From Aeromicrobium endophyticum (GTDB lineage Bacteria > Actinomycetota > Actinomycetes > Propionibacteriales > Nocardioidaceae), in the NCBI RefSeq assembly GCF_003586285.1, contig NZ_QUBR01000003.1:1-64000 (forward strand): a stretch of 64,000 nt of DNA, written 5' to 3'. The translations under genes and the position numbers were made by a program. The notes under the pieces are model-generated. The model worked only from the letters and a program-made list of their open reading frames with translations. It searched no databases and was not told the origin of the DNA. This document shows positions 34,572-52,630 of this stretch, in pieces; positions within the stretch are counted from its first letter, which is position 1; each line of letters begins with the position of its first letter.

Positions 34572-34648
34572 CGCGGGGTGGAGCAGCTCGGTAGCTCGCT
34601 GGGCTCATAACCCAGAGGTCACAGGTTCAAATCCTGTCCCCGCTACCA
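34572..34648 (+). tRNA. Initiator tRNA-Met (anticodon CAT)
   Basis: The gene starts CGCGGGGTGGAGCAG, has anticodon stem GCTGGG/CCCAG with three G:C pairs below the CAT loop and ends CCCCGCTACCA with CCA encoded. The first base is unpaired with position 72 (C with T), and the three G:C pairs of the anticodon stem are present, both initiator hallmarks. Its 3' end is the integration site of the island to the right. Confidence 0.95.
34626..34648 (+). other. Attachment site 1 (att core inside tRNA-Met)
   Basis: The last 23 bases of the tRNA gene, from TTCAAATCC to CGCTACCA, recur with one mismatch at 52607-52629 and two mismatches at 53799-53821. Integration into the T-arm and acceptor end of tRNAs is typical for tyrosine integrases, and the tRNA is restored at one end. 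Confidence 0.8.
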
Positions 34649-34650
34649 CC

Positions 34651-34799: not shown

Positions 34800-34848
34800 T
34801 GGGTGGCTCTGTCAGGGTGTGGTTGGCATCACACCGACGTCCTACCTT
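34800..34848 (+). promoter_or_regulatory. Regulon promoter, copy A (SDR operon)
   Basis: TGGGTGGCTC, TCAGGGTGTGG and a -10-like TACCTT at 34843 form this copy. The 23-base block is shared with sites at 38689, 40740 and 44475, and the -10 T lies 24 bases after the GTGG in all four. GGGTGG and GGGTGTGG form a direct repeat 14 bases apart, upstream of and overlapping the -35 region, as expected for an activator site. Confidence 0.75.
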
Positions 34849-34897
34849 CGTGATCTGGGTCTCAAGTGACCGTACGTGGTCGGACGGAGGAGTTGAC

Positions 34898-35740
34898 ATG
34901 GGCAGAGTGGACGGCAAGGTTGCGCTGATCACTGGAGCGGCGCGCGGTCAGGGTCGGGCACACGCCAAGAGGCTGGCGGAGGAGGGTGCCGACGTCATCC
35001 TGCTCGACCTCTGCCGAGCGGTCACTGGGGTCCGCTACCCGGCTGCCACCGAGGACGACTTCGCCGAGACGATCGACCTCGTCAAGAGTCTCGGCCGCCA
35101 GGTCGTCTCGCACGTGGGCGACGTGCGCAGCAATGAGGATGTGGACAAGGTCGTCGCGGACGGGCTACAGACGTTGGGACACATCGACGTCGTGGTGGCC
35201 AATGCGGGCGTGACGTTGCTCGCGCCCGGGTGGGAGATCACGGAGGCGGACTGGCAGACGCAGATCGACATCAACCTGACCGGCAGCTGGCGCGTGGCCA
35301 ATGCCGTCATCCCGTCGATGATCGAGGCCGGCAGGGGTGGTTCGATCATGTTCACGACGTCTGGCGTGGTCGCCGGAGGAGTCGGCAACATGGCGCACTA
35401 CTCGGCCACCAAGCACGGACTCATCGGCATCACCAAGGAGCTCGCGCTCGAGCTGGCGCCCTACGGGATCCGGGTCAACACCCTGCAGCCGACGGCTGTC
35501 AACACGCACATGATGGACAACGAAGTCATGTGGAACCTGTTCACGCCGGGACAGGACGATGCCACTCCGGAGGCTCGACGACAGGGAATGCTCGACATCC
35601 TCGTCCGGACGCACCCGCAGGCCGTGCCGTGGATCGAGCCCGAGGACATGGCGAACGGGGCGCTCTGGCTGGCCTCTGACGAGTCCCGGCGGGTCACCGG
35701 CACGGCTCTCATCATCGACGCCGGGCTCTCGGGCCACTAG
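34898..35740 (+). CDS. SDR-family dehydrogenase, mycofactocin-coupled type
   Basis: A 280-residue short-chain dehydrogenase. The cofactor loop is TGAARGQGR (12-20) and the active site is Tyr168/Lys172 in YSATKHG. Between beta-2 and the next helix it has a ~24-residue insertion (about 39-62, DLCRAVTGVRYP...), the hallmark of the SDR group that holds NAD tightly and uses mycofactocin as electron carrier. It should oxidise an alcohol or hydroxyacid. The ATG at 34898 has a GGAGGAG site. First gene of an operon with an MDR dehydrogenase, an isomerase and a regulator. Confidence 0.88.
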   Translation: MGRVDGKVALITGAARGQGRAHAKRLAEEGADVILLDLCRAVTGVRYPAATEDDFAETIDLVKSLGRQVVSHVGDVRSNEDVDKVVADGLQTLGHIDVVVANAGVTLLAPGWEITEADWQTQIDINLTGSWRVANAVIPSMIEAGRGGSIMFTTSGVVAGGVGNMAHYSATKHGLIGITKELALELAPYGIRVNTLQPTAVNTHMMDNEVMWNLFTPGQDDATPEARRQGMLDILVRTHPQAVPWIEPEDMANGALWLASDESRRVTGTALIIDAGLSGH

Positions 35741-35804
35741 GACTCTCCACCACGAGGGCGATCAAGCCCGAACGATGCACGGCAATCAGCGAAGGACCAG
35801 TGAC

Positions 35805-36878
35805 ATGAGTAGCAACACCAACGATGGAGCAGCACAGAACGACGCCCGAGCCGTCTGGTTCGTGGCGCCCCGAGAGGTCGAGCTCCGAAGCGAGCCGATC
35901 GGCGCGCCGGGTCCGGAGGACATCAACGTCCGCGCGATCACATCCCTGGTGAGTGCCGGCACCGAGATGAGCGTCTACCACGGGACGGCAGGCTCGAAGG
36001 ACGCCGTCGACCTGCCTACGACCGGGGGAAGCTTCCCCTTCCCGCTCAAGTTCGCGTACCAGATCGTCGGCGAGGTTGAGGAGGCCGGCGACCGGTCGGG
36101 GTTCTCTGTCGGCGATCGTGTGTTCGCCTATCATCCGCACCAGGAGCTCTTCACCATCGGCGGCACCTCGGGATTCGTCTTCCCGGTGCACGGGGAGGCG
36201 AGCGCCGAGCAGGCTGCCTTCACCAACCTGTACAGCGTCGCGTACAACGCGCTCCTGGACACGCCGGTCCGCATCGGCGACGTGGTCGTCGTCTCGGGCC
36301 TCGGCGTGATCGGCACGTTCTTGGCGCACCTGTGTCGAGCCGACGCTGGGACGCTCATCCTCGTCGACCCGATGCCCAGTCGTCGGGAGCGGGCCGCGTG
36401 GATCGGTGCCGATGCCGTCGTCTCGCCGGACGAGGCCGCTGCCGTCATCGAAGAGCTCTCCGCTGGGCGAGGCAATGATCTGTGGTTCGAGGCCAGCGGG
36501 GCGCCTGCTGCCCTGCAGTCGGCCGTCGACAACACAGGTCAGGAAGGGACTATCACCGTTGTGTCGTTCTACGGCAACAAGCCGGTGACCCTGCAGCTCG
36601 GGCTGCAGTTCCACTTCCGTCGTCAGCGGATCGTGAGCAGCCAGATCAGCTCGATCGGATCGGGGCTCCAGCCGCGGTGGGACTGGGTGCGCCGCTACGA
36701 CGTCGCCCAGAACAGGCTCGCGAGCTTCGACGTCGACAAGTTGGTCACGCATCGGGTGTCGATCGACGACGCGTCGGACGCCTACCGGCTGATCGACCAG
36801 CATGCCGACGAGACGCTGGCGGTGCTGCTCGACTATCCACGCATCCCTTCCTCTGCACGATCGACCCAAGGAGCATGA
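35805..36878 (+). CDS. MDR-family (zinc-binding-type) dehydrogenase
   Basis: A 357-residue medium-chain dehydrogenase with a GroES-like N-terminal domain and a Rossmann domain (VVVSGLGVIGTFLAHLCRA, about 165-183). The usual zinc motif GHE is replaced by FAYQIVGEVEEAG, so the catalytic zinc is probably not bound in the standard way, as in several sugar or BchC-like members. It should act on a polyol or hydroxy compound. ATG at 35805, 64 bases after the SDR gene. Confidence 0.82.
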   Translation: MSSNTNDGAAQNDARAVWFVAPREVELRSEPIGAPGPEDINVRAITSLVSAGTEMSVYHGTAGSKDAVDLPTTGGSFPFPLKFAYQIVGEVEEAGDRSGFSVGDRVFAYHPHQELFTIGGTSGFVFPVHGEASAEQAAFTNLYSVAYNALLDTPVRIGDVVVVSGLGVIGTFLAHLCRADAGTLILVDPMPSRRERAAWIGADAVVSPDEAAAVIEELSAGRGNDLWFEASGAPAALQSAVDNTGQEGTITVVSFYGNKPVTLQLGLQFHFRRQRIVSSQISSIGSGLQPRWDWVRRYDVAQNRLASFDVDKLVTHRVSIDDASDAYRLIDQHADETLAVLLDYPRIPSSARSTQGA

Positions 36879-36880
36879 CC

Positions 36881-37762
36881 ATGTCCTCCCACTCCCCGCT
36901 CTACTCCGTCTGCCCGCTGACCATGCCCGACACGACGTTCGAGGCGGACCTCGAGCTGGTGCGTGCGTCGGGCGCGTCCGGCATCGGCATCGCGGAGGGC
37001 AAGCTGCGCGACGGCGAGGACCGGGCGCAGCTGGCCGCGTTGAAGGCTTCCGGCTTGAGGGTCGCCGGAGGGATCCCGGCCAATCTCGCACCGCTCCCGC
37101 TGCGGCCTCCGGTCATGTACCCGGGGCCCGACGACCCGGCTGTCCGCATCGGCCTGCTGCGCGAGTCCGTCGAGCGACTGGCGGCCTTCGGCCCCGACTG
37201 CATCGTCGTCACGACCGGCTCGTCGGAGGGCTACTCGAAGGACGAGGCCTGGAGCATCGCGGCCGACGGCATCCGCGACGTCGCGCGGGTCGCCGCCGAC
37301 CTAGGGACCAGGCTTGCTGTGGAGGTCGTCCGCGGCGACCTGGGGTTCGATGCCTCCTTCGTCCGGACCTTGACCGAGGCGTCGGAGTTCATCGAGCTGG
37401 TGGGCGAGCCCTCCGTCGGTCTGTGCTACGACGTCTACCACGTCTGGGACTCTCCCGATCTCCTGCAGCAGACCGAGCAGCTCGCCGCCCAGACCTTCCT
37501 CGTCCAGGTCAGCGACTGGCCCGACCCGCCGCGCTCGCTCGCGGACCGCCGCATCCCGGGCGAAGGCATCATCGATCTGCCGGCGATCTTCGGCGCGCTC
37601 CAGCGTGGCGGCTACGACGGCTGGTACGAGCTCGAGATCTTCTCCGACGACGGCCGCTGGGGCGACGACTTCCCGGACTCGCTGTGGAAGCTGCCGCCGG
37701 CAGAGCTCCTGGACCGCAGCCAGCAGGCCTTCGACCTGCTGTGGGCGAAGCGAGCCCAGTGA
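36881..37762 (+). CDS. Sugar-phosphate isomerase/epimerase-like TIM barrel
   Basis: A 293-residue AP_endonuc_2-type TIM barrel. Metal-ligand candidates are Glu in LAVEVVRGDL, Asp/His in CYDVYHVWD, the QVSDWPDPP region and Glu in WYELEIFSDD near the end. Members isomerise sugars or keto-acids or cleave inosose-type compounds. The ATG at 36881 has AAGGAG seven bases upstream; the ATG at 36875 overlaps the preceding stop but lacks spacing. Confidence 0.82.
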   Translation: MSSHSPLYSVCPLTMPDTTFEADLELVRASGASGIGIAEGKLRDGEDRAQLAALKASGLRVAGGIPANLAPLPLRPPVMYPGPDDPAVRIGLLRESVERLAAFGPDCIVVTTGSSEGYSKDEAWSIAADGIRDVARVAADLGTRLAVEVVRGDLGFDASFVRTLTEASEFIELVGEPSVGLCYDVYHVWDSPDLLQQTEQLAAQTFLVQVSDWPDPPRSLADRRIPGEGIIDLPAIFGALQRGGYDGWYELEIFSDDGRWGDDFPDSLWKLPPAELLDRSQQAFDLLWAKRAQ

Positions 37763-37808
37763 GGTTCCGATCCTGATCGCGGTGCTCCACCGGGTGCATA
37801 CTGACTCG

Positions 37809-38666
37809 ATGGAGCGGTCCGACGTCGCCAAGGAGCTAGGACACTTCCTGCGCACCCGCCGCGAGCGCCTCGGTCCCGAGGGTGACGGCGGCAGCCGGCG
37901 TACCCAGGGCCTGCGTCGTGAGGAGGTCGCCGAGAACGCCGCGGTCAGCCGCGAGTACTACACGAAGCTCGAGCAGGGGCGCGCCCTCAACCCGTCACCG
38001 GAGGTGCTCGAGGCGGTGGCTGCGGCGCTGCTGCTGACGACCGACGAGGTCATGTACGTGCAGGACCTCGCGTCGCTGATGCGGGGTGGGGGCGTGTCGG
38101 ACCGGGCAGAGGCGGACGACGCACCTGACCAGGTGGGTTTTCGCCTGCTCGACGCCATCAGGGACCGTCCCGCCTGGGTGGTCGACCACCGGTTGGACAT
38201 CACGTCGTGGAACGACATGGCGTGTGAGCTGCTGGTCGACTTCGGGTCGCTGCCGCCGCAGCAACGCAACCTGTCGTGGTTGGTGTTCACGCATCCTGTG
38301 GTGCGATCGCGGTGCGTGGAGTGGGGTGACGTCGCACGTCAGAACGTCGCGCTCCTCCGGGGCGGTGCCGGACGTCATCCGAACGACCCGCGCATCGCTC
38401 AGCTGGTGGGCGAGCTGACCGAGCGAAGCAGCTCCTTCGCTCGGTTGTGGGCCTCGCACGACGTGCTGGGCAGGAACTTCGGATCCCGCGCCTTCGAGCA
38501 CCCTCGCGCCGGCCGATTCGAGGTGGCCTACGACGCCCTGCGCCTCCCCGGGCCTTCGGATCGTCATCTGACGGTGTACTCCGCTCGCGACGCAGTCGGG
38601 GAGCAGGCGCTGCGGGTGATGAGGTCGATCTGCGACGCGTCCGAGATGGCCGCTTCGCACCGTTGA
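37809..38666 (+). CDS. XRE-family regulator with MmyB-like ligand domain
   Basis: A 285-residue regulator: helix-turn-helix (about 7-75, containing GLRREEVAENAAVSREYYTKLEQG) and a MmyB-like ligand-binding domain (about 100-270, containing VVDHRLDITSWNDMACELLVDF). MmyB domains are related to PAS folds and may bind fatty acids or other small ligands. As the only regulator gene in the island it is the best candidate to act at the four shared promoter elements. It ends 22 bases before copy B. Confidence 0.9.
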   Translation: MERSDVAKELGHFLRTRRERLGPEGDGGSRRTQGLRREEVAENAAVSREYYTKLEQGRALNPSPEVLEAVAAALLLTTDEVMYVQDLASLMRGGGVSDRAEADDAPDQVGFRLLDAIRDRPAWVVDHRLDITSWNDMACELLVDFGSLPPQQRNLSWLVFTHPVVRSRCVEWGDVARQNVALLRGGAGRHPNDPRIAQLVGELTERSSSFARLWASHDVLGRNFGSRAFEHPRAGRFEVAYDALRLPGPSDRHLTVYSARDAVGEQALRVMRSICDASEMAASHR

Positions 38667-38688
38667 GCTTCACCTGACGTCCGCGCCG

Positions 38689-38737
38689 TGGGTGGTCCTG
38701 TCAGGGTGTGGCTCACGTCTCACGGAGCGCCTTACGG
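38689..38737 (+). promoter_or_regulatory. Regulon promoter, copy B (CocE gene)
   Basis: TGGGTGGTCC, TCAGGGTGTGG and TTACGG at 38732 keep the same spacing as copies A, C and D. About 145 bases of leader follow before the CocE start; nothing else was recognised in it. Confidence 0.72.
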
Positions 38738-38882
38738 TGGCGCTTGGTCCAGGTCGAATCCTCGACGGACGTTCACCATCGATCCGAAGTTGGTCCCCGC
38801 TCCGTCCGGCCACTGCGTTCTCGCAGGCCGGCGCTCCACGGCGACTCGCGGCCTTCTCGGCGCACTCACGAAGGACATCCCC

Positions 38883-40649
38883 ATGGTTTCAACCGTAGGT
38901 TCAGCTCGTCGCGGCGACGAGAACGTCGTCCAGGCGGACGGGATGCAGATCGAGTACGACGTGCCCATCCCGATGTCCGACGGGACGATCCTGCGAGCCA
39001 ATGTGTTCCGGCCGATCGGCGACGGCGAGTTCCCCGTGCTGATGAGCTACGGGCCCTACGGCAAGGACCTGCCGTTCCAGGACGCCTACCCCAGGCAGTT
39101 CGACGCGATGGTCAAGGCACACCCGGAGATCGCAGTGGGGACGACCGGCAAGCACCAGGTCTGGGAGCTGGCTGACCCGGAGCGCTGGGTGCCGCTCGGC
39201 TACGCCCTGGTCCGCGTGGACGCGCGGGGATCGGGTCGCTCACCCGGCTTCATCGACAGCTTCGCGTCGCAGGAGACCCGTGACTTCTACGAGTGCATCG
39301 AGTGGGGCGGGACGCAACCGTGGTCGAACGGCAAGGTCGGTCTGAGCGGCATCTCGTACTACGCCATCAACCAGTGGGCCGTCGCCGCTCTGCAGCCGCC
39401 TCACCTTGCTGCGATCTGCCCCTGGGAGGGCATGGTCGACTGGTATCGCGACGCCAACTACCACGGAGGAATCCCCAGCTCGTTCTTCCCGCGGCTGTAC
39501 GGCGTCCAGATCGAGACCGTGCAGCACGGCCTGGGGACCCGGGGGCAGAAGAACGAGCGCCTGGGCGTGCTCGTCTCGGGTGATGTCGACCTCGGCGAGG
39601 ACGAGCTCGGCGCACGTCGAGCCGACGTCGCCCAGGAGCTGCGCCAGCATCCCTTCATCGACTCGTACTGGCGGGACCGGAGCGCCGATCTCTCCAAGGT
39701 CCACGTGCCCGTGCTGTCGGCGGGCAACTGGGGCGGGCAGGCGCTGCACCTGCGCGGCAACATCGCCGGCTTCGTCGAGTCGGCCTCGGAGCAGAAGTGG
39801 TTGGAGGTCCACGGGGAGGCTCACTGGACCCTCTACTACTCGGACTACGGGGTCGACCTGCAGCGCCGGTTCTTCGACTACTTCCTCAAGGACGAGGGGG
39901 ACTGGTCGCACGAGCAGCCACCGGTCTCGCTGAACATCCGCCACCCCGACGAGACGTTCGAGCTCCGGGCAGAGCAGGAGTGGCCCATCGCCCGGACCGA
40001 CTGGACCACCTACTACCTCGACGCGGCAGACAACGCGCTGTCTCTCGACCCGCGTCCTCAGCCGTCCGAGATCACGTACGAGCCCTTCGGTCCCGGCGTG
40101 ACCCTGCTGACGCCCGCCTTCGAGGAGGCCACGGAGATCACCGGGCCCGTAGCTGCGAAGCTCTTCGTCTCGTCGGAGAGCGAGGACACCGACCTCTTTC
40201 TGGTGCTGCACCTCATCGACCCGGATGGCGCCGAGGTGCTCTTCGAGGGCGCGACCGAGCCGAGGCATCCTCTCTCGCAGGGGTGGCTCCGTGCTTCTCA
40301 CCGGGCACTGGACTCTGCGAGGAGTCTGCCCTACCAACCGGTGCATCCGCACGACGCGGCGGTTCCGCTCGTGCCCGGTGAGACGTACGAGCTCGACGTG
40401 GAGATCTGGCCCACCTGCATCGTCGTCCCGCCTGGGTGCAGGATCGCCCTCAGCGTCCTCGGTCGGGACTTCGACCACGGACGGGAAGGCCTCCCGACGG
40501 CCTATGGTGTCGAGATGCGAGGGTCGGGCGTCAACGTCCACGACGACCCGGTGGCGCGGTCGGCAGACGTCTACAACCGCCCGGTGACGCTGAGGTCGGG
40601 CGGGGCCCACCCTTCGTATCTGCTTCTCCCGGTGGTTCCGCCTGCCTGA
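38883..40649 (+). CDS. CocE/NonD-family hydrolase (first copy)
   Basis: A 588-residue alpha/beta hydrolase with the C-terminal jelly-roll (X-Pro dipeptidyl-peptidase C) domain from about residue 350. The likely nucleophile is Ser158 in GLSGISYYA, with the oxyanion region VRVDARGSGRS and a later His in HGEAHW. CocE members cleave esters or amides such as cocaine or beta-lactam-like side chains. The longer frame from 38688 reads through promoter B, so the ATG at 38883 with GAAGGA upstream was chosen. Probably cytosolic. Confidence 0.88.
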   Translation: MVSTVGSARRGDENVVQADGMQIEYDVPIPMSDGTILRANVFRPIGDGEFPVLMSYGPYGKDLPFQDAYPRQFDAMVKAHPEIAVGTTGKHQVWELADPERWVPLGYALVRVDARGSGRSPGFIDSFASQETRDFYECIEWGGTQPWSNGKVGLSGISYYAINQWAVAALQPPHLAAICPWEGMVDWYRDANYHGGIPSSFFPRLYGVQIETVQHGLGTRGQKNERLGVLVSGDVDLGEDELGARRADVAQELRQHPFIDSYWRDRSADLSKVHVPVLSAGNWGGQALHLRGNIAGFVESASEQKWLEVHGEAHWTLYYSDYGVDLQRRFFDYFLKDEGDWSHEQPPVSLNIRHPDETFELRAEQEWPIARTDWTTYYLDAADNALSLDPRPQPSEITYEPFGPGVTLLTPAFEEATEITGPVAAKLFVSSESEDTDLFLVLHLIDPDGAEVLFEGATEPRHPLSQGWLRASHRALDSARSLPYQPVHPHDAAVPLVPGETYELDVEIWPTCIVVPPGCRIALSVLGRDFDHGREGLPTAYGVEMRGSGVNVHDDPVARSADVYNRPVTLRSGGAHPSYLLLPVVPPA

Positions 40650-40680
40650 CGGGCGCGCACCCGCGCTGCTCCGTGATCTC

Positions 40681-40712
40681 GCGCCATCGTCGGCAACTGT
40701 CGACGGTGGCGC
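40681..40712 (+). terminator. Hairpin after the first CocE gene
   Basis: GCGCCATCGTCG pairs with CGACGGTGGCGC around eight bases, with one G-T pair in a 12-pair stem. It separates the CocE unit from promoter C. Confidence 0.65.
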
Positions 40713-40739
40713 GACGTCGTTGGATCCTCGGACGAAACG

Positions 40740-40788
40740 TGGGTGGCTCTCGCAGGGTGTGGTTGAGATCACATCGGCGCTCTAACGT
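40740..40788 (+). promoter_or_regulatory. Regulon promoter, copy C (ABC importer)
   Basis: TGGGTGGCTC, GCAGGGTGTGG and TAACGT at 40783 keep the spacing of the other copies. The transporter gene starts 75 bases after the -10 box. Confidence 0.75.
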
Positions 40789-40863
40789 CCCTGTGACGAG
40801 TCAACAGGAGTTGATCCTCGCGCCAGGGCCGTCTCGGGGTGCCCCCACGATCTAGGAGCAAGA

Positions 40864-41922
40864 ATGAGTCACTTCCCAGGCAAGCCGCGCCTCGTGAGCC
40901 GAGCGGCCGTCGCAGGCGCCCTCGTCGTCCTGAGCCTGACGGGATGTGCCGCGACCTCGGACGGCGGGGGAGCCGCTGCGAAGGGCGACGCCGACAGCAA
41001 GGTCAACGTGGCCGTGCTCAACTGCACGGCTGCCCCGTACTGCGTGGCGGGCAACGACGCCCTGACCGGTGAGACGGCCACGCTCGGCGTCAAGGCCAAG
41101 ATGTACGACGCCGTGTTCGACCCCGCGAAGACGGTCTCCTCGTGCAAAGACGCGATCGCGTCCCGCAAGTACAACGTCATGGTGATCAACTCGGCCATCC
41201 CCTCGGCGAGCGTCGCCTGCGCGACGGCGGCGAAGGCCGCCGGCGTCCCGGTCATCGGGATGTTCGGTCCGATCGGCACGGACACTGCCCATGCCGAGCC
41301 GACCACGCCCGGCGTGCTGTCGCAGGTCCTCGTCCCCCTCGACACGCAGGTGGACACCCTGATCGACGACATCGTCGTCCCGGCTTGCGCGAACAAGAAT
41401 CCGTGCGAGATCGGCTGGCTCAGAACCACCAAGAGCCTCCCGCAGGGCGACGCGATCATCGACAAGAAGCTCAGCGCAGCACTCAAGGTGCACACCAACT
41501 TGAAGCTCGTCGGCGAGGTCTCGTCGGAGACCGAGGTCGGAGCTGCCGTCACTGCCACGAAGACCTTCCTGCAGAAGGACCCAGGCCTCGACCTCATCCT
41601 GTCCTACGCGACTCAGGGGACCTCGGGCGCGATCACCGCGTTGAAGGCCGAGGGCAAGGCGCCGGGCGAGGATGTCCTCATCGCCACGGCCGGCGGCAGC
41701 CAGGACGTCATGGCCGCCATGCGACGCGGCGAGGTCTACGGCACCATCGTCAACCTGCCTGCCACGGAGATGAAGATCGCTGTCGGACTCGCCGCGGACG
41801 TCGTGCGCGGCAAGAAGATCCCCACCTCCGTTGACCCCCTCGAGTCCGCCGGTCTTCCGCGAGCCATCACCCAGACGAACCTCAAGGACTTCCCCGACTT
41901 CGAGGGCGAGTACACCCAGTGA
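40864..41922 (+). CDS. Sugar-type ABC transporter substrate-binding lipoprotein
   Basis: A 352-residue lipoprotein with a signal peptide ending LTGC and a periplasmic-binding-protein type I fold (RbsB-like): VAVLNCTAAPYCVAGND, VMVINSAIPSASVAC and a second lobe with DLILSYATQGTSGAITAL and VLIATAGGSQDVMAAM. Four cysteines in the mature part (in NCTAAPYC, SSCKD, VACATA and PACANKNPC) may form disulfides. Ligand unknown. It heads a coupled importer operon. Confidence 0.88.
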   Translation: MSHFPGKPRLVSRAAVAGALVVLSLTGCAATSDGGGAAAKGDADSKVNVAVLNCTAAPYCVAGNDALTGETATLGVKAKMYDAVFDPAKTVSSCKDAIASRKYNVMVINSAIPSASVACATAAKAAGVPVIGMFGPIGTDTAHAEPTTPGVLSQVLVPLDTQVDTLIDDIVVPACANKNPCEIGWLRTTKSLPQGDAIIDKKLSAALKVHTNLKLVGEVSSETEVGAAVTATKTFLQKDPGLDLILSYATQGTSGAITALKAEGKAPGEDVLIATAGGSQDVMAAMRRGEVYGTIVNLPATEMKIAVGLAADVVRGKKIPTSVDPLESAGLPRAITQTNLKDFPDFEGEYTQ

Positions 41923-43469
41923 ATGTCGACACCGTGCTCGACGCTGCGAGCGAGCGGTCCTCGGTCGCCCACCGGGGGCTGGCGCTCACCGTCGAGGGGA
42001 TCGAGAAGAGGTACGGAGCGATCCACGCGCTCAAGGGCGTCTCGTTGTCCATCGAGGCCGGCGAGGTGCGTGGTCTGGTGGGTGAGAACGGCGCCGGCAA
42101 GTCGACCCTGGGCAAGATCGTGGCAGGAGTGGTCGCTCCCGACGCCGGAGAGATGTGGGTGGACGGCGATCCTCTTCGTCTTCGCAGCGCCGCGGACGCC
42201 TTGGCACACGGCATCTCGATCGTGGCCCAAGAGCTGGCGGTGGTGCCCCACCTGACCGTCGCCGAGAACGTCATGCTGGGCCGCGAACCCCGCCGCGGAC
42301 TCGCTGTCGACCACAAGGAGCTGCGGTCACGGTTCCTGGAGCTGAGCGAGCAGGTCGGGTTCTCGCTCGACCCTGGGGCGCGCCTGGGCACGCTTCGCAA
42401 GAGCGAGCAGCAGAAGGCAGAGATCCTGCGGGCCGTGGCCCGGGACGCACGCCTGATCGTCATGGACGAGCCGACGGCCGCCCTGAGCTCCGACGAGGCG
42501 CGACAGCTCGTCGCGGCGACACGCCGACTGGCCGCCGAGGGTCGCACGATCGTGTTCGTGTCGCATCACCTCGACGAGGTCCTGGCGGTCTGCGACAACA
42601 TCACCGTCCTGCGCGACGGGCGGTTCGTCCGGACCGGTCCGTCCGAGTCGGAGACCGCTGACTCCCTCGTCACGTCGATGCTGGGCCAGCACCTCGCGTC
42701 CGAGTACCCGGTCAAGTCCACGCCGAGTCGTACCGGGACGCCTGCGCTGAAGGTCGCCGAGCTGAGCTCGTCGACGGGGCTGCGAGACGTGAATTTCGAG
42801 ATCTGGCCCGGGGAGGTGGTCGGGATCGCAGGCCTCGTGGGAAGCGGGCGCAGCGAGCTGGCACGGGCGGTCTTCGGCGCGGATGCGCACGACGGCGTCG
42901 TCCAGATCGACGGCGAGCGGACCCGCATCACGTCGGTGCGCGCGGCGATCGATGCCGGCATCGCCATGCTGCCCGAGAACCGCAAGGAGCTCGGTCTGCT
43001 GCTGGAACGGTCGGTCACCGAGAACATCAGCATCCCCCGGCTGAGCAGCCTCACCCGATTCTCCCGGGTGAGCAGGAGCGCCGAGCGGCAATCGGTCGGC
43101 GCCATGCTGGAGAAGGTCGGCGTCCGCGCATCGGCCGCGGATGCCCCGGTCGGGACGCTCTCGGGCGGCAACCAGCAGAAGGTCATGTTCGCGAAGTGGC
43201 TCATGACGTCGCCGAGGATCTTCATCGCGGACGAGCCGAGCCAGGGCGTGGATGTCGGCGCCAGGGCGCGCATCTATGAGCTCATCGCCGAGATGGCCCA
43301 GCAAGGCATGGCCGTGCTGATCATCTCCTCGGAGCTCGAAGAGGTCATCGGGTTGGCACATCGTGTGCTGGTCATGAGGAAGGGACAGATCGTGAGCGAG
43401 CTCGCCGACGAGTCGGTGCAGGCAGAGACCATCTTGGGACACGCGTTCGGAACGGCGGCCGCATCATGA
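41919..43469 (+). CDS. Sugar-type ABC transporter ATPase, two-domain (RbsA/MglA type)
   Basis: A 516-residue fused double ATPase. The first domain has Walker A GENGAGKST and Walker B LIVMDEPTAALS, with the degenerate signature LRKSEQQKAEI. The second has the typical degenerate Walker A GLVGSGRSE, signature LSGGNQQKV and FIADEPSQGVD. This pattern is normal for the CUT2 class. The GTG start overlaps the preceding stop. Confidence 0.94.
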   Translation: MNVDTVLDAASERSSVAHRGLALTVEGIEKRYGAIHALKGVSLSIEAGEVRGLVGENGAGKSTLGKIVAGVVAPDAGEMWVDGDPLRLRSAADALAHGISIVAQELAVVPHLTVAENVMLGREPRRGLAVDHKELRSRFLELSEQVGFSLDPGARLGTLRKSEQQKAEILRAVARDARLIVMDEPTAALSSDEARQLVAATRRLAAEGRTIVFVSHHLDEVLAVCDNITVLRDGRFVRTGPSESETADSLVTSMLGQHLASEYPVKSTPSRTGTPALKVAELSSSTGLRDVNFEIWPGEVVGIAGLVGSGRSELARAVFGADAHDGVVQIDGERTRITSVRAAIDAGIAMLPENRKELGLLLERSVTENISIPRLSSLTRFSRVSRSAERQSVGAMLEKVGVRASAADAPVGTLSGGNQQKVMFAKWLMTSPRIFIADEPSQGVDVGARARIYELIAEMAQQGMAVLIISSELEEVIGLAHRVLVMRKGQIVSELADESVQAETILGHAFGTAAAS

Positions 43470-44452
43470 CCGTCGACCAGGACCGCGTCGAGCTGCGCGC
43501 AGCGCATCAGAAGATCCTCCGAGACGTCTCGCCGGCCAAGGTGGCCAGGGAGTACGCCGTCCTCCTGCTGTCGGTGCTCCTGTTCCTCTACCTGTCGTTC
43601 GCGGCCGACAACTTCTTCACCGCCGTGAACCTGCGCAACGTCGCCAGCCAGTCGGCCATCCTCGGCATCATGGCCAGCGCGGCGACCCTGCTGATCGTGG
43701 CCGGCAACTTCGACCTGTCGGTGGGTGCGATCTTCGCAGCCTCTGGAATCGTCACGGTGCTGGTCGTCGAGAGCTCGTCGATGCCCGTCGGAGTGGCTGC
43801 GGGTCTGCTCACCGGAATGGTCCTGGGCCTGCTCAACGGCGTGATCGTCACCCGATTCGGCGTGAACTCGTTCATCGCGACCCTGGCCTCGAGCCTGGTC
43901 ATCGGCGGCGTGATCCTGGTGATCACCGGCGGCGAGAACACCGACACGACCAACATCTCCTTCATCACCATGTCTGCTCGCCAGTTCCTGGGACTCGACC
44001 TGATGACCTGGGTGTTCATCGTCTGGGCGCTCCTGCTCGGCTACGTGCTGGCCCGATCGATCTACGGCCGCTACATGTACGCGGCGGGAGGCAGTGCCGT
44101 CGCCGCTCAGCTCTCCGGCGTCTCGGTGACCGGCATCCGGACGGCGACGTTCGTCGTGAGCGGACTCGGCGCCGCGATCGCGGGCATCCTGTCGGCATCG
44201 CAGTCCGGGAGCGTCCCGGTCACCGCAGGCTCGAACCTCGTGCTCATCAGCATCGCCGCCGTGGTCGTGGGAGGCACCAGCATCTGGGGAGGGGACGGTG
44301 CGGTGTGGAGGACGGTGGTCGGGGTCGTCTTCCTCTCCCTCATCGACAACGGCTTCAACCTGCTCGACCTGGATCCGCTGTACGGGAACATCGTCTACGG
44401 AAGCATCATCCTGGTCGCCGCGGCCATCGACGCCCAGGCTCGGCGTCGATGA
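43466..44452 (+). CDS. Sugar-type ABC transporter permease (RbsC-like)
   Basis: A 328-residue CUT2-class permease with about nine or ten helices. It contains NFDLSVGAIFAASG, GVNSFIATLASSL and VVVGGTSIWGGDGAVWRT. A single permease gene implies a homodimer. It overlaps the ATPase stop (ATGA) and ends the importer operon. Confidence 0.93.
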   Translation: MTVDQDRVELRAAHQKILRDVSPAKVAREYAVLLLSVLLFLYLSFAADNFFTAVNLRNVASQSAILGIMASAATLLIVAGNFDLSVGAIFAASGIVTVLVVESSSMPVGVAAGLLTGMVLGLLNGVIVTRFGVNSFIATLASSLVIGGVILVITGGENTDTTNISFITMSARQFLGLDLMTWVFIVWALLLGYVLARSIYGRYMYAAGGSAVAAQLSGVSVTGIRTATFVVSGLGAAIAGILSASQSGSVPVTAGSNLVLISIAAVVVGGTSIWGGDGAVWRTVVGVVFLSLIDNGFNLLDLDPLYGNIVYGSIILVAAAIDAQARRR

Positions 44453-44474
44453 CGCCCGCGCTGTCGAGGCGACC

Positions 44475-44523
44475 TGGGTGGCTCCATCAGGGTGTGGTTG
44501 GCGGCCAACGGGAGCCGTACGTT
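44475..44523 (+). promoter_or_regulatory. Regulon promoter, copy D (MBL-E2 operon)
   Basis: TGGGTGGCTC, TCAGGGTGTGG and TACGTT at 44518 again keep the fixed spacing. The first gene of the six-gene operon begins 62 bases after the -10 box. Confidence 0.75.
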
Positions 44524-44584
44524 CGGAGAGGCCAGCACGGCCACTGCGCCGCGTCGCTGCGGACAGGACCGGAAGGACTCCCAC

Positions 44585-45520
44585 ATGAGTGAGCGATCCA
44601 TCGTGGACGACGGCCTCTTGACCGAGGTCGCGGACGGTGTGTGGGCGTGGACCCAGGGCGATGGGTCCTGGTGGATCAACAACGCCGGCCTGATCGCAGG
44701 CGACGACGGCGACGTCCTCGTCGACACCTGCGCCACCGAAGCACGGACCAGGCGGTTCCTGGATCACGTGACGGCGGTGCGGCCCGACGCGTCGATCCGT
44801 TTCGCGGTCAACACCCATCTCCACGGCGACCACACACACGGCAACAGCCTCCTGCCGGCCACCACCAGCATCGTCGGGCACGCGCTGATGAGGCTCGGTC
44901 TGGCCGATGACGTGATCATCGACGGGTGTCCGCCGTTCTGGAGCCCGGTCCCCGACTGGGGCCATGTGACCAAGCGGCTGCCGACCGTCACCTATCAGGA
45001 CCGGCTCGTACTCCACAGTGGGACCAGAGAGGTGCACGTCCTCCATCCGGGATTCGCGGCGCACACCCCCGGCGACTCGGTGGCGTTCGTGCCGGACGCG
45101 GGCGTCCTCTTCGCAGGAGACCTGCTGTTCCACGGCGTCACGCCGCTGGTCTTCATGGGGTCTCTCGACGGTGCTCTCCGTGCGTTGGACTGGATGGCGG
45201 AGTTCGACGCTGACGTCGTGGTGCCGGGCCACGGAGGCGTCCTCCGGCGCCAAGACCTCGATGCGGTCCTGGAGACCCACCGCAGGTACTACCGGTTCAT
45301 CCAGAGCACGGCCCGGGACGGCTTGGCGGCTGGACTCTCCCCGCTGGAGGCGGCCCGCCGTTCCGATCTCGGTGACCTCGCGTCGTTGCCCGACTCCGAG
45401 CGCGTCGTGCTGAACCTGCACCGCGCGTACGCGGAGACGTCCGACTGGCCGTTCGACCTCCTCGCGGCGTTCGAGGACGCAGTGCTCTACAACGGCTCTC
45501 CCCTCCCGACATCGGTCTGA
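44585..45520 (+). CDS. MBL-fold metallohydrolase
   Basis: A 311-residue metallo-beta-lactamase-fold enzyme with the metal motif NTHLHGDHTHGN (HxHxDH, about residues 76-87), later ligands in TPGDSVAF and FAGDLLF and the final His in VPGHGGV. The C-terminal ~90 residues are helical. It may hydrolyse a thioester, lactone or ester in the pathway. ATG at 44585 with GAAGGA upstream; a longer frame starts inside promoter D. Confidence 0.88.
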   Translation: MSERSIVDDGLLTEVADGVWAWTQGDGSWWINNAGLIAGDDGDVLVDTCATEARTRRFLDHVTAVRPDASIRFAVNTHLHGDHTHGNSLLPATTSIVGHALMRLGLADDVIIDGCPPFWSPVPDWGHVTKRLPTVTYQDRLVLHSGTREVHVLHPGFAAHTPGDSVAFVPDAGVLFAGDLLFHGVTPLVFMGSLDGALRALDWMAEFDADVVVPGHGGVLRRQDLDAVLETHRRYYRFIQSTARDGLAAGLSPLEAARRSDLGDLASLPDSERVVLNLHRAYAETSDWPFDLLAAFEDAVLYNGSPLPTSV

Positions 45521-45545
45521 CCGACCCACGCGACTAGGACACGAC

Positions 45546-46508
45546 ATGCGATTCATGACATTCTCCGACGACGGCGACGAGCGGCTGGCCGTCGCCGACG
45601 GAGACACGGTCCACGCCCTCGCTGAGGGGACCACGCTCCTGGGTCTGCTGCGCCAAGGCGGAGACGCTCTGCGCCGAGCGGGTGAAGACGCGTTGGCGCA
45701 GCTCGGCGAAGGGTTGTCGCCCGACACGCTCGAGGTGCTGGCACCGATCCCGACGCCACCGACGGTTCGGGACTTCATGACCTTCGAGCAGCACGTGGAG
45801 GGCGCCATCCGGCTGGCCGATCCCGAAGCGACGGTGCCGGAGCAGTGGTACACCGCGCCGATCTTCTACTTCACCAACCCCTACGCCACCGTGGGCCCCT
45901 ACGACGACGTGCCGCTGCCGCCCGAGGAGACGCTGTTCGACTTCGAGCTCGAGGTCGCCGCCGTCGTCGGCGGGTCGGGGCGGGACCTCGGCGTCGCCGA
46001 GGCCGAGGACCTCATCGCCGGCTACATGATTCTCAACGACTGGTCTGCTCGTTCGATCCAGTTCAAGGAGATGACCGTGCGCCTGGGCCCCTCGAAGGGC
46101 AAGGACTCGGCGACCTCGATGGGACCCTGGTTCGTCACGCCGGACGAGCTGGAACCCTTCAGGCACGGAACGGCCTTCGACCTGTCCATGCGTGCGTATG
46201 TGAACGGCGAGCTCATCGGCACGGACACGTGGTCGAACATGGCCTTCAGCTACGGACAGATGATCGCCTACGCGTCGCGCGGTACCGAGGTGCGCCCGGG
46301 CGACGTGTTCGGGTCCGGCACGGCCGGGGACGGATGCCTGGCCGAGGCGTGGGGCAACAAGGGGTACGACGCCCACTCGCCATTGGCTCCCGGTGACGTC
46401 GTCACGCTCGAGGTCGACGGGCTCGGGACGCAGCGATCGACGATCGTCGTCCGCTCGCAGCCGGCCCGCGGCACCGAGATCTACCGGACCGAAGCCGCCC
46501 GCCGGTGA
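45546..46508 (+). CDS. Fumarylacetoacetate hydrolase (FAH)-family protein
   Basis: A 320-residue FAH-family protein. Metal ligands are suggested by FDFELEVAAVVG (two Glu) and LNDWSAR (Asp); SMGPWFVTPDEL and the C-terminal PLAPGDVVTLEVDG are also typical. Members hydrate, decarboxylate or cleave C-C bonds of keto-acids, often downstream of ring opening. It could act on a beta-diketo or oxaloacetate-like intermediate. Confidence 0.9.
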   Translation: MRFMTFSDDGDERLAVADGDTVHALAEGTTLLGLLRQGGDALRRAGEDALAQLGEGLSPDTLEVLAPIPTPPTVRDFMTFEQHVEGAIRLADPEATVPEQWYTAPIFYFTNPYATVGPYDDVPLPPEETLFDFELEVAAVVGGSGRDLGVAEAEDLIAGYMILNDWSARSIQFKEMTVRLGPSKGKDSATSMGPWFVTPDELEPFRHGTAFDLSMRAYVNGELIGTDTWSNMAFSYGQMIAYASRGTEVRPGDVFGSGTAGDGCLAEAWGNKGYDAHSPLAPGDVVTLEVDGLGTQRSTIVVRSQPARGTEIYRTEAARR

Positions 46509-46723
46509 GCGCCTTCGCCCGATGGCTGGGCATCCGCCGGGCCGGGCGCCCACACGTGTCGAACCACGAGGAGCGCGTCTCAGGAGCTCCGCGCGACACC
46601 CACGAGGCGCCTTCCTTCATCGAGGCGATGAGCGCGTGCGCACTGGCGCACGGAGTCTCGCTGCAGGAGCTCGAGCTGCCCCGCGAACGTGAACCAGGAG
46701 GTCGACCATGGAGTTCCCGCTGA
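46505..46723 (+). CDS. Small hypothetical ORF between FAH and ligase, 72 aa
   Basis: The GTG at 46505 overlaps the FAH stop (GTGA) and the ORF runs 16 bases into the ligase gene. It fills a 200-bp gap in an otherwise tight operon. The protein is basic at first, then has a helix-forming part SFIEAMSACALAHGVSLQELEL. No motif is recognised. It may be a real coupled gene or chance. Confidence 0.4.
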   Translation: MSAFARWLGIRRAGRPHVSNHEERVSGAPRDTHEAPSFIEAMSACALAHGVSLQELELPREREPGGRPWSSR

Positions 46724-48231
46724 CCATCAAGGACTTTCTCGACCGAGCGGTGAACGTCTACCCCGAGCGCGTCGCCGTGGTCGACGAAGCCGATCAGCCC
46801 GCGCCCTCAATGGGCAGCCTGACGTACCGGGACGTCGACCGTCTCGCTCGCTCGCAGGCCGTCGCGCTCGACGACATGGGCGTGCCGGTCGGAGGGCGCG
46901 TCGCCGTGCTCTCGCAGAACTCAGCCCGGCTGCTCATCTCTTTCTTCGGCGTGTCGAGCTGGGGCCGCGTGCTCGTGCCGGTCAACTTCCGCCTCGCTCG
47001 TCCCGAGGTCGACTACATCCTGCAGCAGTCAGGTGCCGAGGTGTTGCTCGTCGATCCCGAGCTCGTCCACCTGGTGGATCCGGACCTGCCGGTCCGCACC
47101 ATCGTCTTCGGCGACACCGACGACCTGCTCTGGAACCGCACGGGCGAGCCCCGGCACTGGCCGGGTGACGAGTCGGCACCGGCCACGATCAACTACACCT
47201 CGGGCACCACGTCGAAGCCCAAGGGGGTCGTCCTGACCCACCGCAACCTGTGGCTGAACGCGACCACGTTCGGCTGGCACGTCGGCTTGAACGATGATGA
47301 CGTCTACCTCCACACGCTGCCGATGTTCCACGCGAACGGGTGGGGGATGCCGTACGCGACGAGTGCGATGGGAGTCGAGCAGGTCGTCCTGCGCAAGGTC
47401 GACGGCGCGGAGATCCTCCGGCGCGTCCAGCGCCACGGAGTGACGCTCCTGTGCGCCGCGCCTGCCGTGCTGACGGCCGTGCTCGAAGCAGCGCGGGACT
47501 GGGAGGGTGAGGTGCCCGGCCGGGCCAGACTGCGGGCCGTCGTGGCTGGCGCGCCACCGCCCACCAGGACGATCGAGCGCATCAGGGACGAGCTGGGCTG
47601 GGAGTTCATCCAGATCTACGGCCTGACCGAGACGTCCCCGTTGCTGACCGTAAACCGTATGCGGGCCGAGTGGCGCGACGAGCCGCGGGAGCGACAGGCG
47701 CGGCTGCTGGGCCGGCAGGGCGCCCCGGCCCTCGGGGTTCGCCTGGCCACTGACCCCTCGGGCGAAGTGCTCGCCCAAGCCAACCAGTGCATGGCCGGCT
47801 ACTGGGAGATGGACCAGCAGACGGCGGATGCTCAGGTCGGAGGGTGGTTTCACACCGGTGACGGAGGAGTGCTGGAGGACGGCTACCTGACGATCGTCGA
47901 TCGCAAGAAGGACGTCATCGTCTCGGGAGGCGAGAATGTCTCCTCCATCGAGGTCGAGGACGTGCTCCTGTCCCACCCGTCCGTGCGCGAGGCGGCGGTC
48001 ATCGGCATCCCCGACGAGAAGTGGGGGGAGCTCGTCACGGCGCTGCTCGTGACCGACGAGCACGTCGACGAGTCGGAGCTGATGCAGCACTGCCGTGAAC
48101 GACTTGCCGGCTACAAGTGCCCCAAGCGCATCGAGTTCAGAAAGAACCTGGAACGGACCGCGACGGGCAAGCTCCAGAAGTTCAAGCTGCGTCAGCCCTA
48201 CTGGCGCGACCGCACCGTACAGGTGAACTAG
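46708..48231 (+). CDS. Acyl-CoA synthetase/AMP-dependent ligase
   Basis: A 507-residue ANL-family ligase. The ATP loop is NYTSGTTSKPKG, then IYGLTETSPL, YLTIVDRKKDVIVSGGEN and the C-terminal catalytic lysine in RTATGKLQKFKLR. It should adenylate a carboxylate and form its CoA thioester. The substrate is not evident, but long-chain and aromatic acids are common in this branch. ATG at 46708 has an AGGAGG site. Confidence 0.92.
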   Translation: MEFPLTIKDFLDRAVNVYPERVAVVDEADQPAPSMGSLTYRDVDRLARSQAVALDDMGVPVGGRVAVLSQNSARLLISFFGVSSWGRVLVPVNFRLARPEVDYILQQSGAEVLLVDPELVHLVDPDLPVRTIVFGDTDDLLWNRTGEPRHWPGDESAPATINYTSGTTSKPKGVVLTHRNLWLNATTFGWHVGLNDDDVYLHTLPMFHANGWGMPYATSAMGVEQVVLRKVDGAEILRRVQRHGVTLLCAAPAVLTAVLEAARDWEGEVPGRARLRAVVAGAPPPTRTIERIRDELGWEFIQIYGLTETSPLLTVNRMRAEWRDEPRERQARLLGRQGAPALGVRLATDPSGEVLAQANQCMAGYWEMDQQTADAQVGGWFHTGDGGVLEDGYLTIVDRKKDVIVSGGENVSSIEVEDVLLSHPSVREAAVIGIPDEKWGELVTALLVTDEHVDESELMQHCRERLAGYKCPKRIEFRKNLERTATGKLQKFKLRQPYWRDRTVQVN

Positions 48232-48325
48232 CTCCACCGGCCCTCGCGCACCGGCACGGTGCGAGACGCGATCGACCCATGTCGATGCGCGCAGTTCTGC
48301 ACGACCTCAACCACGAAGGATCGCC

Positions 48326-50665
48326 ATGACACAGACCAGTCCGTCCAATGCCTCGGGCGAGTCGACCGACACAGACCTGCTGCGGCAGGTCGCGGAGCGG
48401 GCCAGGTGGATCTCGACTGCCATCGTCGACGCGGCCAACCGAGGACGCCCCAACGAGTCGGGTGTCAAGGTGGGTGGGCATCAGGCGTCGAGCGCGTCGA
48501 TGGTGGAGATCATGGTGTCGTTGTGGTTCTCGGAGCTGACGAGCATCGACCGGGTGTCGGTCAAGCCGCACGCGTCGCCGGTTCTCCACGCCATCAACTA
48601 CCTGCTGGGCGACCTGGATGAGAAGTACCTGTCGACGTTGCGGGCGAAGGGTGGTCTGCAGTCGTATCCGAGCCGTCGCAAGGATCCGGACACGGTCGAC
48701 TTCTCGACCGGTTCTGTGGGTATCGGCGCGACGGCGGCGTTGTGGGCGGCGATGTCGCACCGGTACGTGAGCTCACACTTCGCGACTGCCCCTCCGGCAG
48801 GCCGGTTCGTGAGCCTGTTGGGTGACGCCGAGCTGGACGAGGGGGCGATCTGGGAGGCCGTCGCTGACCCGTCCGTCGCGCGCCTCGGCGAGCTGCTGTG
48901 GATCGTCGACCTCAATCGACAGTCACTCGACCGAGTCGTGCCTGACGTCCAGATCCATCGTCTGATGGGGATGTTCGAGGCGGCCGGATGGCAGGTGATC
49001 ACCCTGAAGTGGGGTCGAGCGATCGCGGAGCTGTTCGGGCGGCCTGGGGGCGATGAGCTGCGGCGGCGTCTGGAGGACATGCCGAACGAGGAGTACCAGC
49101 GGCTGCTGCGCGTGGATTCGTCCGAGATCGCCGACCGCATCATCGGCCCGAACGGGAGTGAGCAGCTGCGAGGACTTCTGGTCTCGCTGTCGGCGGCCGA
49201 GCTGGCGCATGCGGTGCGTGATCTGGGCGGCCACGACATCGGGTTGCTGCTGGACACGTACCGGACGGTCGACTCGACCCGCCCGACGATCATCTTCGCC
49301 TACACCGTCAAGGGGCGTGGTCTGCCGACCGAGGGCCATCCGAACAACCACTCGGCGCTGCTGACGGGCGAGCAGATGCTGGAGCTGGCGCGAGTCTCGG
49401 GCGCGGACGTGGACCACCCGTGGGCCAGGTTCGCGGCCGGGTCGCCGGCGGCGAGACTGTGCGACGCGCGAGGCTCCGACATGGCGCGCGCCCCTGTCGT
49501 CACGCAGCCGACGGGACAGGTCCCGGTCCGGTTGGGGCGGTCGCACAAGGCACCGGTCTCGACGCAAGCCGCTCTGGGCCGCTTCCTCGCGGACTTCAAG
49601 CGGTCGGCACCCGAGATCGCGGCCCGCGTCGTGACGTGCAGCCCCGACGTCGCGTCATCGACGAACCTGGGCGGCTGGATCAACAAGACCGGGGTGTGGT
49701 CGGTGCAGGACCGGCTCGACTGGTTCGCCGACGACACCGAGCGGGTCCTCAAGTGGTCCGAGGTCACCAGCGGCCAGCACATCGAGCTGGGCATCGCCGA
49801 GGTCAACCTCGTGAGCCTGTTGGGCGAGCTCGGCGCCACCTGGTCACGCTGGGGCGAGCGGCTGATCCCCATCGCGACCCTCTACGACCCGTTCGTCTCT
49901 CGGGCACTCGAGCCCTGGTCGTACGGGATCTACTCGGGTGGGCAGTCGATCATCATCGGCACCCCGTCGGGGGTGACGCTGGCCCCTGAGGGTGGGGCGC
50001 ACCAGTCGATCACCACTCCGTCGATCGGGTTGGAGCAGCCCGAGTGCATCGCCTGGGAACCGGTGTTCGCCCAGGACCTGGAGTGGTGCATGCTCGCCGC
50101 GATGGCCCAGGTCGGCATCCAGGGCGGCACGTCGTCGTACTTCCGGCTGTCGACCAGACCGGTCGACCAGGCGCTGGCGTCGCTGCCCGAGGACGACGTG
50201 ATGCTGGAGCGACGTCGCCGGCAGGCCGTCGCCGGTGGGTACCGCATCACGACCCACGACCCAGCCGACGAGCAGGTCACCCTGGTCGGGGTCGGCGCGA
50301 TCCTGCCGGAGGTCATCGCGGCTGCGGACGCGCTGGCCGACCAAGGGATCACGGCGGGAGTCGTCTGCCTGACGAGCCCTGATCTGGTGTTCCGGTCGTT
50401 CAACCAGCGCGGGTCCATCGGCCAGACCCGCGGCGACGACATCATCAGCACCCTGTTCCCCGCGTCGTGCCCGGCACCACTCGTGACCGTCCTGGACGGC
50501 CACCCGCACACGCTGTCGTTCCTCGCCGGAGCCCGCGGCGACCGCATCCGCTGCCTCGGAGTCACCGACTTCGGCCAGTCCACCGGCCTCGAGGACGCCT
50601 ACCGACTCCACGGCATCGACACCGGCGCGATCGCCGACGCGGCGCTCACCCTGATCGGCCGATGA
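48326..50665 (+). CDS. Transketolase-like 2-oxoacid dehydrogenase E1 (AceE-like)
   Basis: A 779-residue thiamine-diphosphate enzyme of the homodimeric pyruvate dehydrogenase E1/transketolase type. The cofactor motif starts at GDAELDEGAIWEA (166-178) and ends DLNRQSLD (195-202), with GGHQASSASMVEI near 50-62. It is about 110-120 residues shorter than the housekeeping AceE. The E2 gene overlaps its stop, so together they should convert a 2-oxo or alpha-diketo compound to an acyl-CoA. No E3 gene is here. GAAGGA site before the ATG. Confidence 0.85.
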   Translation: MTQTSPSNASGESTDTDLLRQVAERARWISTAIVDAANRGRPNESGVKVGGHQASSASMVEIMVSLWFSELTSIDRVSVKPHASPVLHAINYLLGDLDEKYLSTLRAKGGLQSYPSRRKDPDTVDFSTGSVGIGATAALWAAMSHRYVSSHFATAPPAGRFVSLLGDAELDEGAIWEAVADPSVARLGELLWIVDLNRQSLDRVVPDVQIHRLMGMFEAAGWQVITLKWGRAIAELFGRPGGDELRRRLEDMPNEEYQRLLRVDSSEIADRIIGPNGSEQLRGLLVSLSAAELAHAVRDLGGHDIGLLLDTYRTVDSTRPTIIFAYTVKGRGLPTEGHPNNHSALLTGEQMLELARVSGADVDHPWARFAAGSPAARLCDARGSDMARAPVVTQPTGQVPVRLGRSHKAPVSTQAALGRFLADFKRSAPEIAARVVTCSPDVASSTNLGGWINKTGVWSVQDRLDWFADDTERVLKWSEVTSGQHIELGIAEVNLVSLLGELGATWSRWGERLIPIATLYDPFVSRALEPWSYGIYSGGQSIIIGTPSGVTLAPEGGAHQSITTPSIGLEQPECIAWEPVFAQDLEWCMLAAMAQVGIQGGTSSYFRLSTRPVDQALASLPEDDVMLERRRRQAVAGGYRITTHDPADEQVTLVGVGAILPEVIAAADALADQGITAGVVCLTSPDLVFRSFNQRGSIGQTRGDDIISTLFPASCPAPLVTVLDGHPHTLSFLAGARGDRIRCLGVTDFGQSTGLEDAYRLHGIDTGAIADAALTLIGR

Positions 50666-52466: not shown

Positions 52467-52630
52467 CTAGGGGGCGTGACCTCAGCGTGACCTGACGCCC
52501 GTCATATCCCGTGACCTTCTGTCCGGTTCTGCCACGACCAGGATGGGCCCGCGGCAGCCTGTAATCCTCACCATCTCAAGGCAAACTAGGCAGCCGCGTG
52601 ACCAGCTTCAAGTCCTGTCCCCGCTACCAC
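52467..52630 (+). repeat. att arm repeat, copy 1
   Basis: About 160 bp related to 53660-53822. Shared blocks are GTGACCTC, TATCCCGTGACCTTC, CCCGCGGCAGCCTGTA and AGCCGCGTG, ending in the 23-bp att core. Intervening bases differ, so the two copies have diverged. They probably contain arm sites for the integrase. Confidence 0.75.
52607..52629 (+). other. Attachment site 2
   Basis: TTCAAGTCC...CCCCGCTACCA repeats the tRNA-Met 3' end at 34626-34648 with a single A-to-G change. It marks the right end of the 18-kb cargo segment. Confidence 0.8.

Follow-up and report, generated by a model that had tools for sequence, protein, structure and literature searches.

Actinobacteria have many MmyB-type XRE regulators (up to 17 matches per genome), and almost no operators or target sets for them appeared in the literature searched. 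The available part of one study (PMC3406030) proposes that the MmyB/MltR family acts as signal-switched activators, and reports that half of the 16 MmyB-type paralogues of S. coelicolor adjoin SDR or MDR genes and that 15 of the 16 are divergent from their putative target gene. We analyzed a 64,000-nucleotide stretch of Aeromicrobium endophyticum DNA (contig NZ_QUBR01000003.1, positions 1 to 64,000; the window), in which a 49-bp predicted promoter element stands before each of four predicted operons (Table 1). The last gene of the first operon encodes an XRE-type protein with a MmyB/MltR ligand-binding domain. We lean toward the view that this protein binds beside RNA polymerase and activates all four operons, with ligand sensing by its PAS-like domain.

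Copies and anatomy of the element

We found four matches to the pattern TGGGTGGCNCNNTCAGGGTGTGG in the window when up to three mismatches were allowed. All four (34800, 38689, 40740 and 44475) were on the + strand, and the mean number expected from shuffled sequence was 0.00. These are the copies that an earlier, sequence-only reading of this DNA had listed. Those at 34800 and 44475 were identical to the literal string given there, the copy at 38689 had two bases changed (TCC for CTC), and the copy at 40740 had one (GCAGG for TCAGG). The distance from copy to operon, from predicted transcription start to start codon, was 43 to ~140 nt.

The element was confined to this locus. An exact scan with TGGGTGGNNCNNNCAGGGTGTGG of the whole genome (4.03 Mb, 4 contigs) recovered the same four sites and no fifth, which bears out the claim that there is no copy outside the island. 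With three mismatches, the same pattern had four extra matches in the genome, compared to 10 for a reversed control pattern, and the four extra loci had matrix scores (described below) of -2.5 or less, no better than background. These results support the conclusion that one promoter-linked element defines a small predicted regulon, which in this genome does not extend beyond the island.

We aligned ten sites from three genomes: A. endophyticum, a Nocardioides-like genome (G324), and Amycolatopsis pithecellobii. The conserved unit is 49 bp long (p0-p48) and reads tGGGTGGCTC-N3-CAGGGTGTGG-yTGnCnTCnCA-N9-TAnnnT. Its conserved block extends through TGnCnTCnCA, beyond the element first listed. Positions p0-p33 and the hexamer TAnnnT at p43-48 were common to all ten sites. 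Within the hexamer, T43 was conserved in 10/10 sites, and A44 and T48 in 9/10 each. Positions p34-42 were variable, except for a partial preference at p41, and the flanks on both sides held almost no information.

The spacing within the unit was fixed. The first T of the hexamer had been placed exactly 24 bases after the GTGG. Counted from the G of GTGG, we found it 24 bases on in all four copies of the window and in the six further copies from the other genomes (10/10 sites, three genomes). The copy at 38689 reads TTACGG at the fixed distance, and TACGGT is found one base later. The alternation of fixed and free positions across three genera suggests selection rather than recent copying.

Without any regulator, the copies might represent an RNA or G-quadruplex feature, or be what is left of a repeat or a recent duplication. 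The block is indeed G-rich, with four short G-runs. However, the flanks share nothing, fixed and variable positions alternate, the distance to TAnnnT does not change between genera, and the only Rfam family found in 34000-54500 was the tRNA. We give this explanation almost no weight. A riboswitch or RNA leader was rejected on the same Rfam result, and a phage-borne element was rejected for lack of an exact match, in viral contigs, to the 22-mer with CTC fixed.

The internal anatomy proposed for the element was not supported. The inner direct repeat GGGTGG/GGGTGTGG was at chance level for such G-rich sequence (P ~0.47, shuffled conserved letters): at the best offset, 14, only 8 of 17 conserved positions were equal, which 47% of shuffles equalled, and direct-repeat anatomy was rejected. 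A CRP-like palindrome, TGTG-N8-CACA, was also considered and was not the top-scoring palindrome in the element.

We built a position weight matrix from the ten sites and scored each site with its own genome removed. True sites scored 29.7-57.3. The weakest of them scored 45.4 when kept in the matrix and 29.7 with its genome left out, and the best non-site in the window scored 4.1.

Co-occurrence of the element and the XRE/MmyB regulator

The XRE protein was the only one of 13 island proteins with a DNA-binding domain in family scans. It has an XRE helix-turn-helix (HTH) domain (PF13560/PF01381) and the domain PF17765 (MLTR_LBD, E 1.4e-47), all over cut-offs. In a fold search its overall fold was that of MltR (3pxp), and a PDB sequence search returned HTH relatives only. 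It thus resembles the MmyB/MltR regulators in two-domain architecture, in fold and, with an SDR and an MDR gene in its own gene group, in its neighbors (PF17765; 3pxp; the available part of PMC3406030). It differs in that its gene is co-directional and last in operon 1, not divergent from a target as are 15/16 of the S. coelicolor paralogues in that text (PMC3406030), and in that its predicted site stands before several operons. The B-boxes cited for MmyB are pseudo-palindromic as the accessible text describes them, in contrast to the element here, in which no significant palindrome was found; this comparison is with the description of the B-boxes only.

We found the element together with orthologues of this protein. 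Orthologues in whole genomes were called at E <= 1e-80. The motif scan covered 391 genomes of the order, 172 of them in the family (hand count), and the orthologue scan covered 341 family genomes. At least two exact copies of the 22-mer were present in A. endophyticum and G324 only, and the orthologue was present in the same two genomes (2/341). The rest of the window's genus, among the genomes in the family scan, had no orthologue. Of 19 genomes in the genus of A. pithecellobii, one had the orthologue, and only that genome had the 22-mer (at most one mismatch). Thus, wherever both were scanned, at least two exact copies and the orthologue were in the same genomes, and the element accompanied the orthologue in 3/3 searchable carrier genomes, the other two of which have orthologues of 73-79% identity. 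A class-level scan of 394 genomes with a stricter pattern (one mismatch) gave A. endophyticum and three single matches.

The orthologues form a sharply bounded clade. A search of 5.8 billion proteins returned the query itself and 17 further proteins at 73-87% identity (one covering only 78% of the query), plus one more at 75% over 57%; all others of the 120 matches listed were at 45% or less. Carriers include A. pithecellobii, Nocardioides sp. AN3, Actinoplanes sp. NPDC049265 and a metagenome-assembled genome of Nocardioides alkalitolerans. Among plasmid proteins, all 22 records were below 60% identity. Scans of 297 and 22 genomes of two further families, run without a positive control, gave no match.

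Loci with related proteins lacked the element. Our 36 control loci (281 kb) contained no copy, with a top matrix score of 4.0. Of these, 28 are neighborhoods of genes for MmyB paralogues or distant homologues (33-44% identity), 19 of them covering only 1.5 kb per side; the other eight surround genes for CocE homologues (49-55%) and come from seven genomes of the family that lack the orthologue. Nine of ten loci retrieved in one orthologue search were distant homologues (33-41%) and served as controls. All three orthologues have the recognition-helix stretch VSREYYTKLEQGRA, which was carried at none of the 28 paralogue or distant-homologue loci. Together, the 3/3 orthologue genomes with the element and the MmyB control loci without it make the XRE/MmyB gene the best candidate for the regulator, as the sequence-only reading had proposed.

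The two relatives were found by independent routes, G324 by the motif alone and A. pithecellobii by the protein alone. G324 has two copies of the element, before the ADH-TIM-XRE genes and before CocE. In the 38 kb around this locus there is no SDR gene and no ABC importer; the element is kept there. An amino-acid permease (L069 13961-15403, - strand) closely follows CocE behind the same element and holds the transporter place of the ABC importer.

A. pithecellobii has four copies, one of them unlinked. Three are at its locus, ahead of SDR (1 mismatch), CocE (2) and the ABC importer (0). One more exact copy, on another contig, lies directly before an amidohydrolase gene and a CocE homologue (L087 5899-9125); the latter is 54% identical to the island CocE. 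The changes at the G324 locus, together with operon 4 of A. pithecellobii, which closely follows the permease gene and has no element to itself, support the element as the likely unit of control. The amidohydrolase-CocE pair is also present in G391, one of the seven control genomes lacking the orthologue; an amidohydrolase (66%) adjoins the CocE homologue there, and no element was found (best score 2.0). The unlinked operon hints at a pathway for an amide, an ester or an N-heterocycle; degradation of an N-heterocycle was considered from the amidohydrolase, and no substrate is claimed.

Isolated resemblances to the element are more widespread. With at most one mismatch, the 22-mer matched 42 places in 36 genomes of the order. 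Six of these were true sites. The other 36 places (one exact, in G288, and 35 with one mismatch) lay in loci that scored 13.4 or less, and at none of them did the sequence continue into the full element. Seven more look-alike loci from further genome scans scored 15.4 or less. The reversed control pattern also gave scattered matches in the order scan.

Activation, repression or another factor

If the hexamer is a -10 (its T counted as -12), the conserved block would span about -55 to -22. A sigma-70 -35 was not found 16-18 nt from the hexamer: all ten sites had 2-3 of 6 matches there, the same as random positions. At 14 nt from the -10-like hexamer, too close for sigma-70, there is a TTGnC-like hexamer (3-5 of 6). 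The missing -35 and the fixed spacing therefore favor an activator and fit the earlier description of the element as an activator site; activation itself we infer.

Class II activator-dependent promoters, of which those of lambda CII are an example, have a site that overlaps the -35 region, a fixed spacing to the -10, and a poor -35. The element is like them in these respects and unlike them in sequence and protein family (CII sites are TTGC direct repeats), and activation here is a proposal. The XRE protein would bind about -55 to -22, next to RNA polymerase, and would replace the missing -35 contact in the style of a class II activator. It would control its own operon. Its PAS-like domain may sense a ligand, either the pathway substrate or an intermediate, and the four operons would then be switched on together. 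Because A. pithecellobii has the unlinked copy before the amidohydrolase-CocE operon, we suggest that the protein may act in trans too.

The XRE protein might instead bind the element as a repressor over the -35/-10 spacer, with a compound of the pathway releasing it. The stretch that the element would occupy, about -55 to -22, overlaps the promoter, and autoregulated catabolic repressors are common. However, repressor operators usually vary in their distance to the -10, whereas the spacing was fixed in 10/10 sites, and there is no recognizable -35 with which polymerase could work unaided. There is a precedent in MsrR of Corynebacterium glutamicum, which, in the available part of its description (PMC7532634), represses its neighbors and, like the protein here, is an XRE-type actinobacterial regulator with local targets that include its own operon; unlike it, MsrR is a thiol-based repressor of a divergent locus. 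On balance we regard repression as unlikely.

Alternatively, the element might be read by a different factor encoded elsewhere, for example an alternative sigma factor or a global activator, with the XRE protein regulating something else. The block does include a -10 at fixed spacing, as in a sigma-specific promoter. In contrast, conservation extends as far as p0 (about -55), farther than a sigma footprint would, and GTGG lies 20 nt from the hexamer, a long gap for a -35. Furthermore, sets of exact copies are missing in hundreds of relatives that would share any chromosomal factor, and are present alongside the XRE orthologue. We consider this explanation quite improbable.

Several observations count against activation of the four operons by the XRE protein. 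XRE regulators usually bind palindromes, and the best palindrome in the element (5 of 8 pairs) was equalled in 50% of shuffles (P ~0.5). Operon 4 has no element copy of its own in A. pithecellobii or G324; in A. pithecellobii it begins ~54 nt after the permease gene. In a simple scan of 34500-52700, neither a consensus promoter nor a terminator-like site was detected between the gene groups, so the operon limits are themselves predictions. The gene groups are as claimed; that they are separate transcription units is suggested by the gaps and the elements. The pairing of element and orthologue comes from a sample of three genomes, one of which was the source of the motif, with ~15 further listed orthologues outside the sample, and on co-occurrence the XRE gene cannot be told apart completely from the other island genes. 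Single look-alikes of the 22-mer also occur in the absence of the orthologue: 34 further genomes have them (1-2 places each, 0-1 mismatch), and in the 13 of these that belong to the window's family the orthologue scan gave no match. Finally, at least one XRE protein, MsrR, acts as a repressor according to the accessible text (PMC7532634).

Sets of a regulator and its operators are already known; the apparent novelty lies in the sequence of the operator, in its rigid geometry and in its association with a MmyB-type clade. No operator of this form appeared in the literature searched, from which most subscription journals were missing. The clade now has ten matching sites in three genomes, with a defined geometry and a prediction of action in trans. 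As a tentative generalization, which we rate as possible and hold less firmly than activation within the island, the proteins of this MmyB-type XRE clade may be activators that sense a substrate and recognize a composite promoter, 49 bp long and asymmetric, and regulator and promoter may have spread with a catabolic island between actinobacterial genera, recruiting unlinked operons and new transporters. If so, the recruits would include the amidohydrolase-CocE operon of Amycolatopsis and the amino-acid permease of the Nocardioides-like genome, in the same regulon. The regulon also groups the genes of a putative catabolic pathway, including that for a predicted mycofactocin-dependent oxidoreductase, and this grouping aids the search for a substrate.

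Genes and ends of the island

Family scans agreed with the gene groups described in the sequence-only reading (SDR operon, CocE, ABC importer, MBL-to-E2 operon). The enzyme families fit the description of the island as catabolic, which we keep as a prediction. A mycofactocin radical SAM gene (TIGR03962) is located elsewhere in the A. endophyticum genome, and such a gene was over the family cut-off in 3/3 genomes (this one and both relatives). A cyclitol or sugar-acid route was considered; IolM/IolO-like scores were weak, below curated cut-offs, and no substrate is claimed.

Table 1. Positions of the element copies, operon genes and island ends in the window
Feature	Position	Strand	Remarks
tRNA-Met	34572..34648	+	left island end
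Element copy 1	34800..34848	+	before SDR-ADH-TIM-XRE operon; -10-like hexamer TACCTT at 34843-34848
Mycofactocin-coupled SDR oxidoreductase	34898..35740	+	operon 1; TIGR03971, over cut-off
Zinc-type MDR dehydrogenase	35805..36878	+	operon 1; family scans
Xylose-isomerase-like TIM-barrel protein	36875..37762	+	operon 1; family scans
Regulator, XRE-type HTH and MmyB/MltR ligand-binding domain	37809..38666	+	last gene, operon 1
Element copy 2	38689..38737	+	before CocE; hexamer at 38732-38737 is TTACGG, with TACGGT one base on
CocE/NonD family hydrolase	38883..40649	+	operon 2; TIGR00976
Element copy 3	40740..40788	+	before ABC importer operon; hexamer TAACGT at 40783-40788
Ribose-type ABC importer	40864..44452	+	operon 3; binding protein 40864-41922, ATPase 41919-43469, permease 43466-44452
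Element copy 4	44475..44523	+	before MBL-FAH-ACS-E1-E2 operon; hexamer TACGTT at 44518-44523
Operon 4	44585..51732	+	MBL-fold hydrolase 44585-45520, FAA hydrolase 45546-46508, AMP-ligase 46708-48231
Operon 4, continued		+	AceE-like E1 48326-50665, lipoyl E2 50662-51732
28-nt copy of tRNA-Met 3' end	52603..52630	+	93%, E 7.8e-6; likely right attachment site

The four elements and four operons all lie between tRNA-Met and a copy of its 3' end, and this 18-kb segment is probably an island between likely attachment sites. It is like tRNA-integrated genomic islands in having tRNA-Met at one end and the 28-nt 3'-end copy at the other, and unlike them in that only a weak integrase remnant was seen. 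This remnant is a 70-aa open reading frame (52694-52906, - strand) beside the right tRNA copy. Its product is similar to the C terminus of tyrosine recombinases (PF00589, with E 0.051 below cut-off), and it is apparently a decayed integrase. Because of the tRNA-bounded ends, and because the orthologue is absent from the rest of the genus, horizontal acquisition of the island is likely and would account for the element's confinement to it. No tRNA was found at the loci of the two relatives.

A second, weaker copy of the tRNA-Met 3' end is present at 53799-53826 and perhaps bounds a second, 1.2-kb segment behind the island. Farther right, the window encodes a second CocE-type protein (54212-56026), outside the tRNA copies and with no element before it. 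At the island end, convergent with E2, is a truncated gene (51745-52359, - strand) for the N-terminal part only of a gamma-glutamyltranspeptidase (PF01019 positions 2-150 of 512). ARAGORN called a tRNA-Glu at 37696-37785, at the 3' end of the TIM-barrel gene and upstream of the regulator; it had no Rfam match at the gathering threshold and is likely false. Right after tRNA-Met there is a near-perfect hairpin of ~38 nt (34651-34688) with no T-run, possibly the tRNA terminator.

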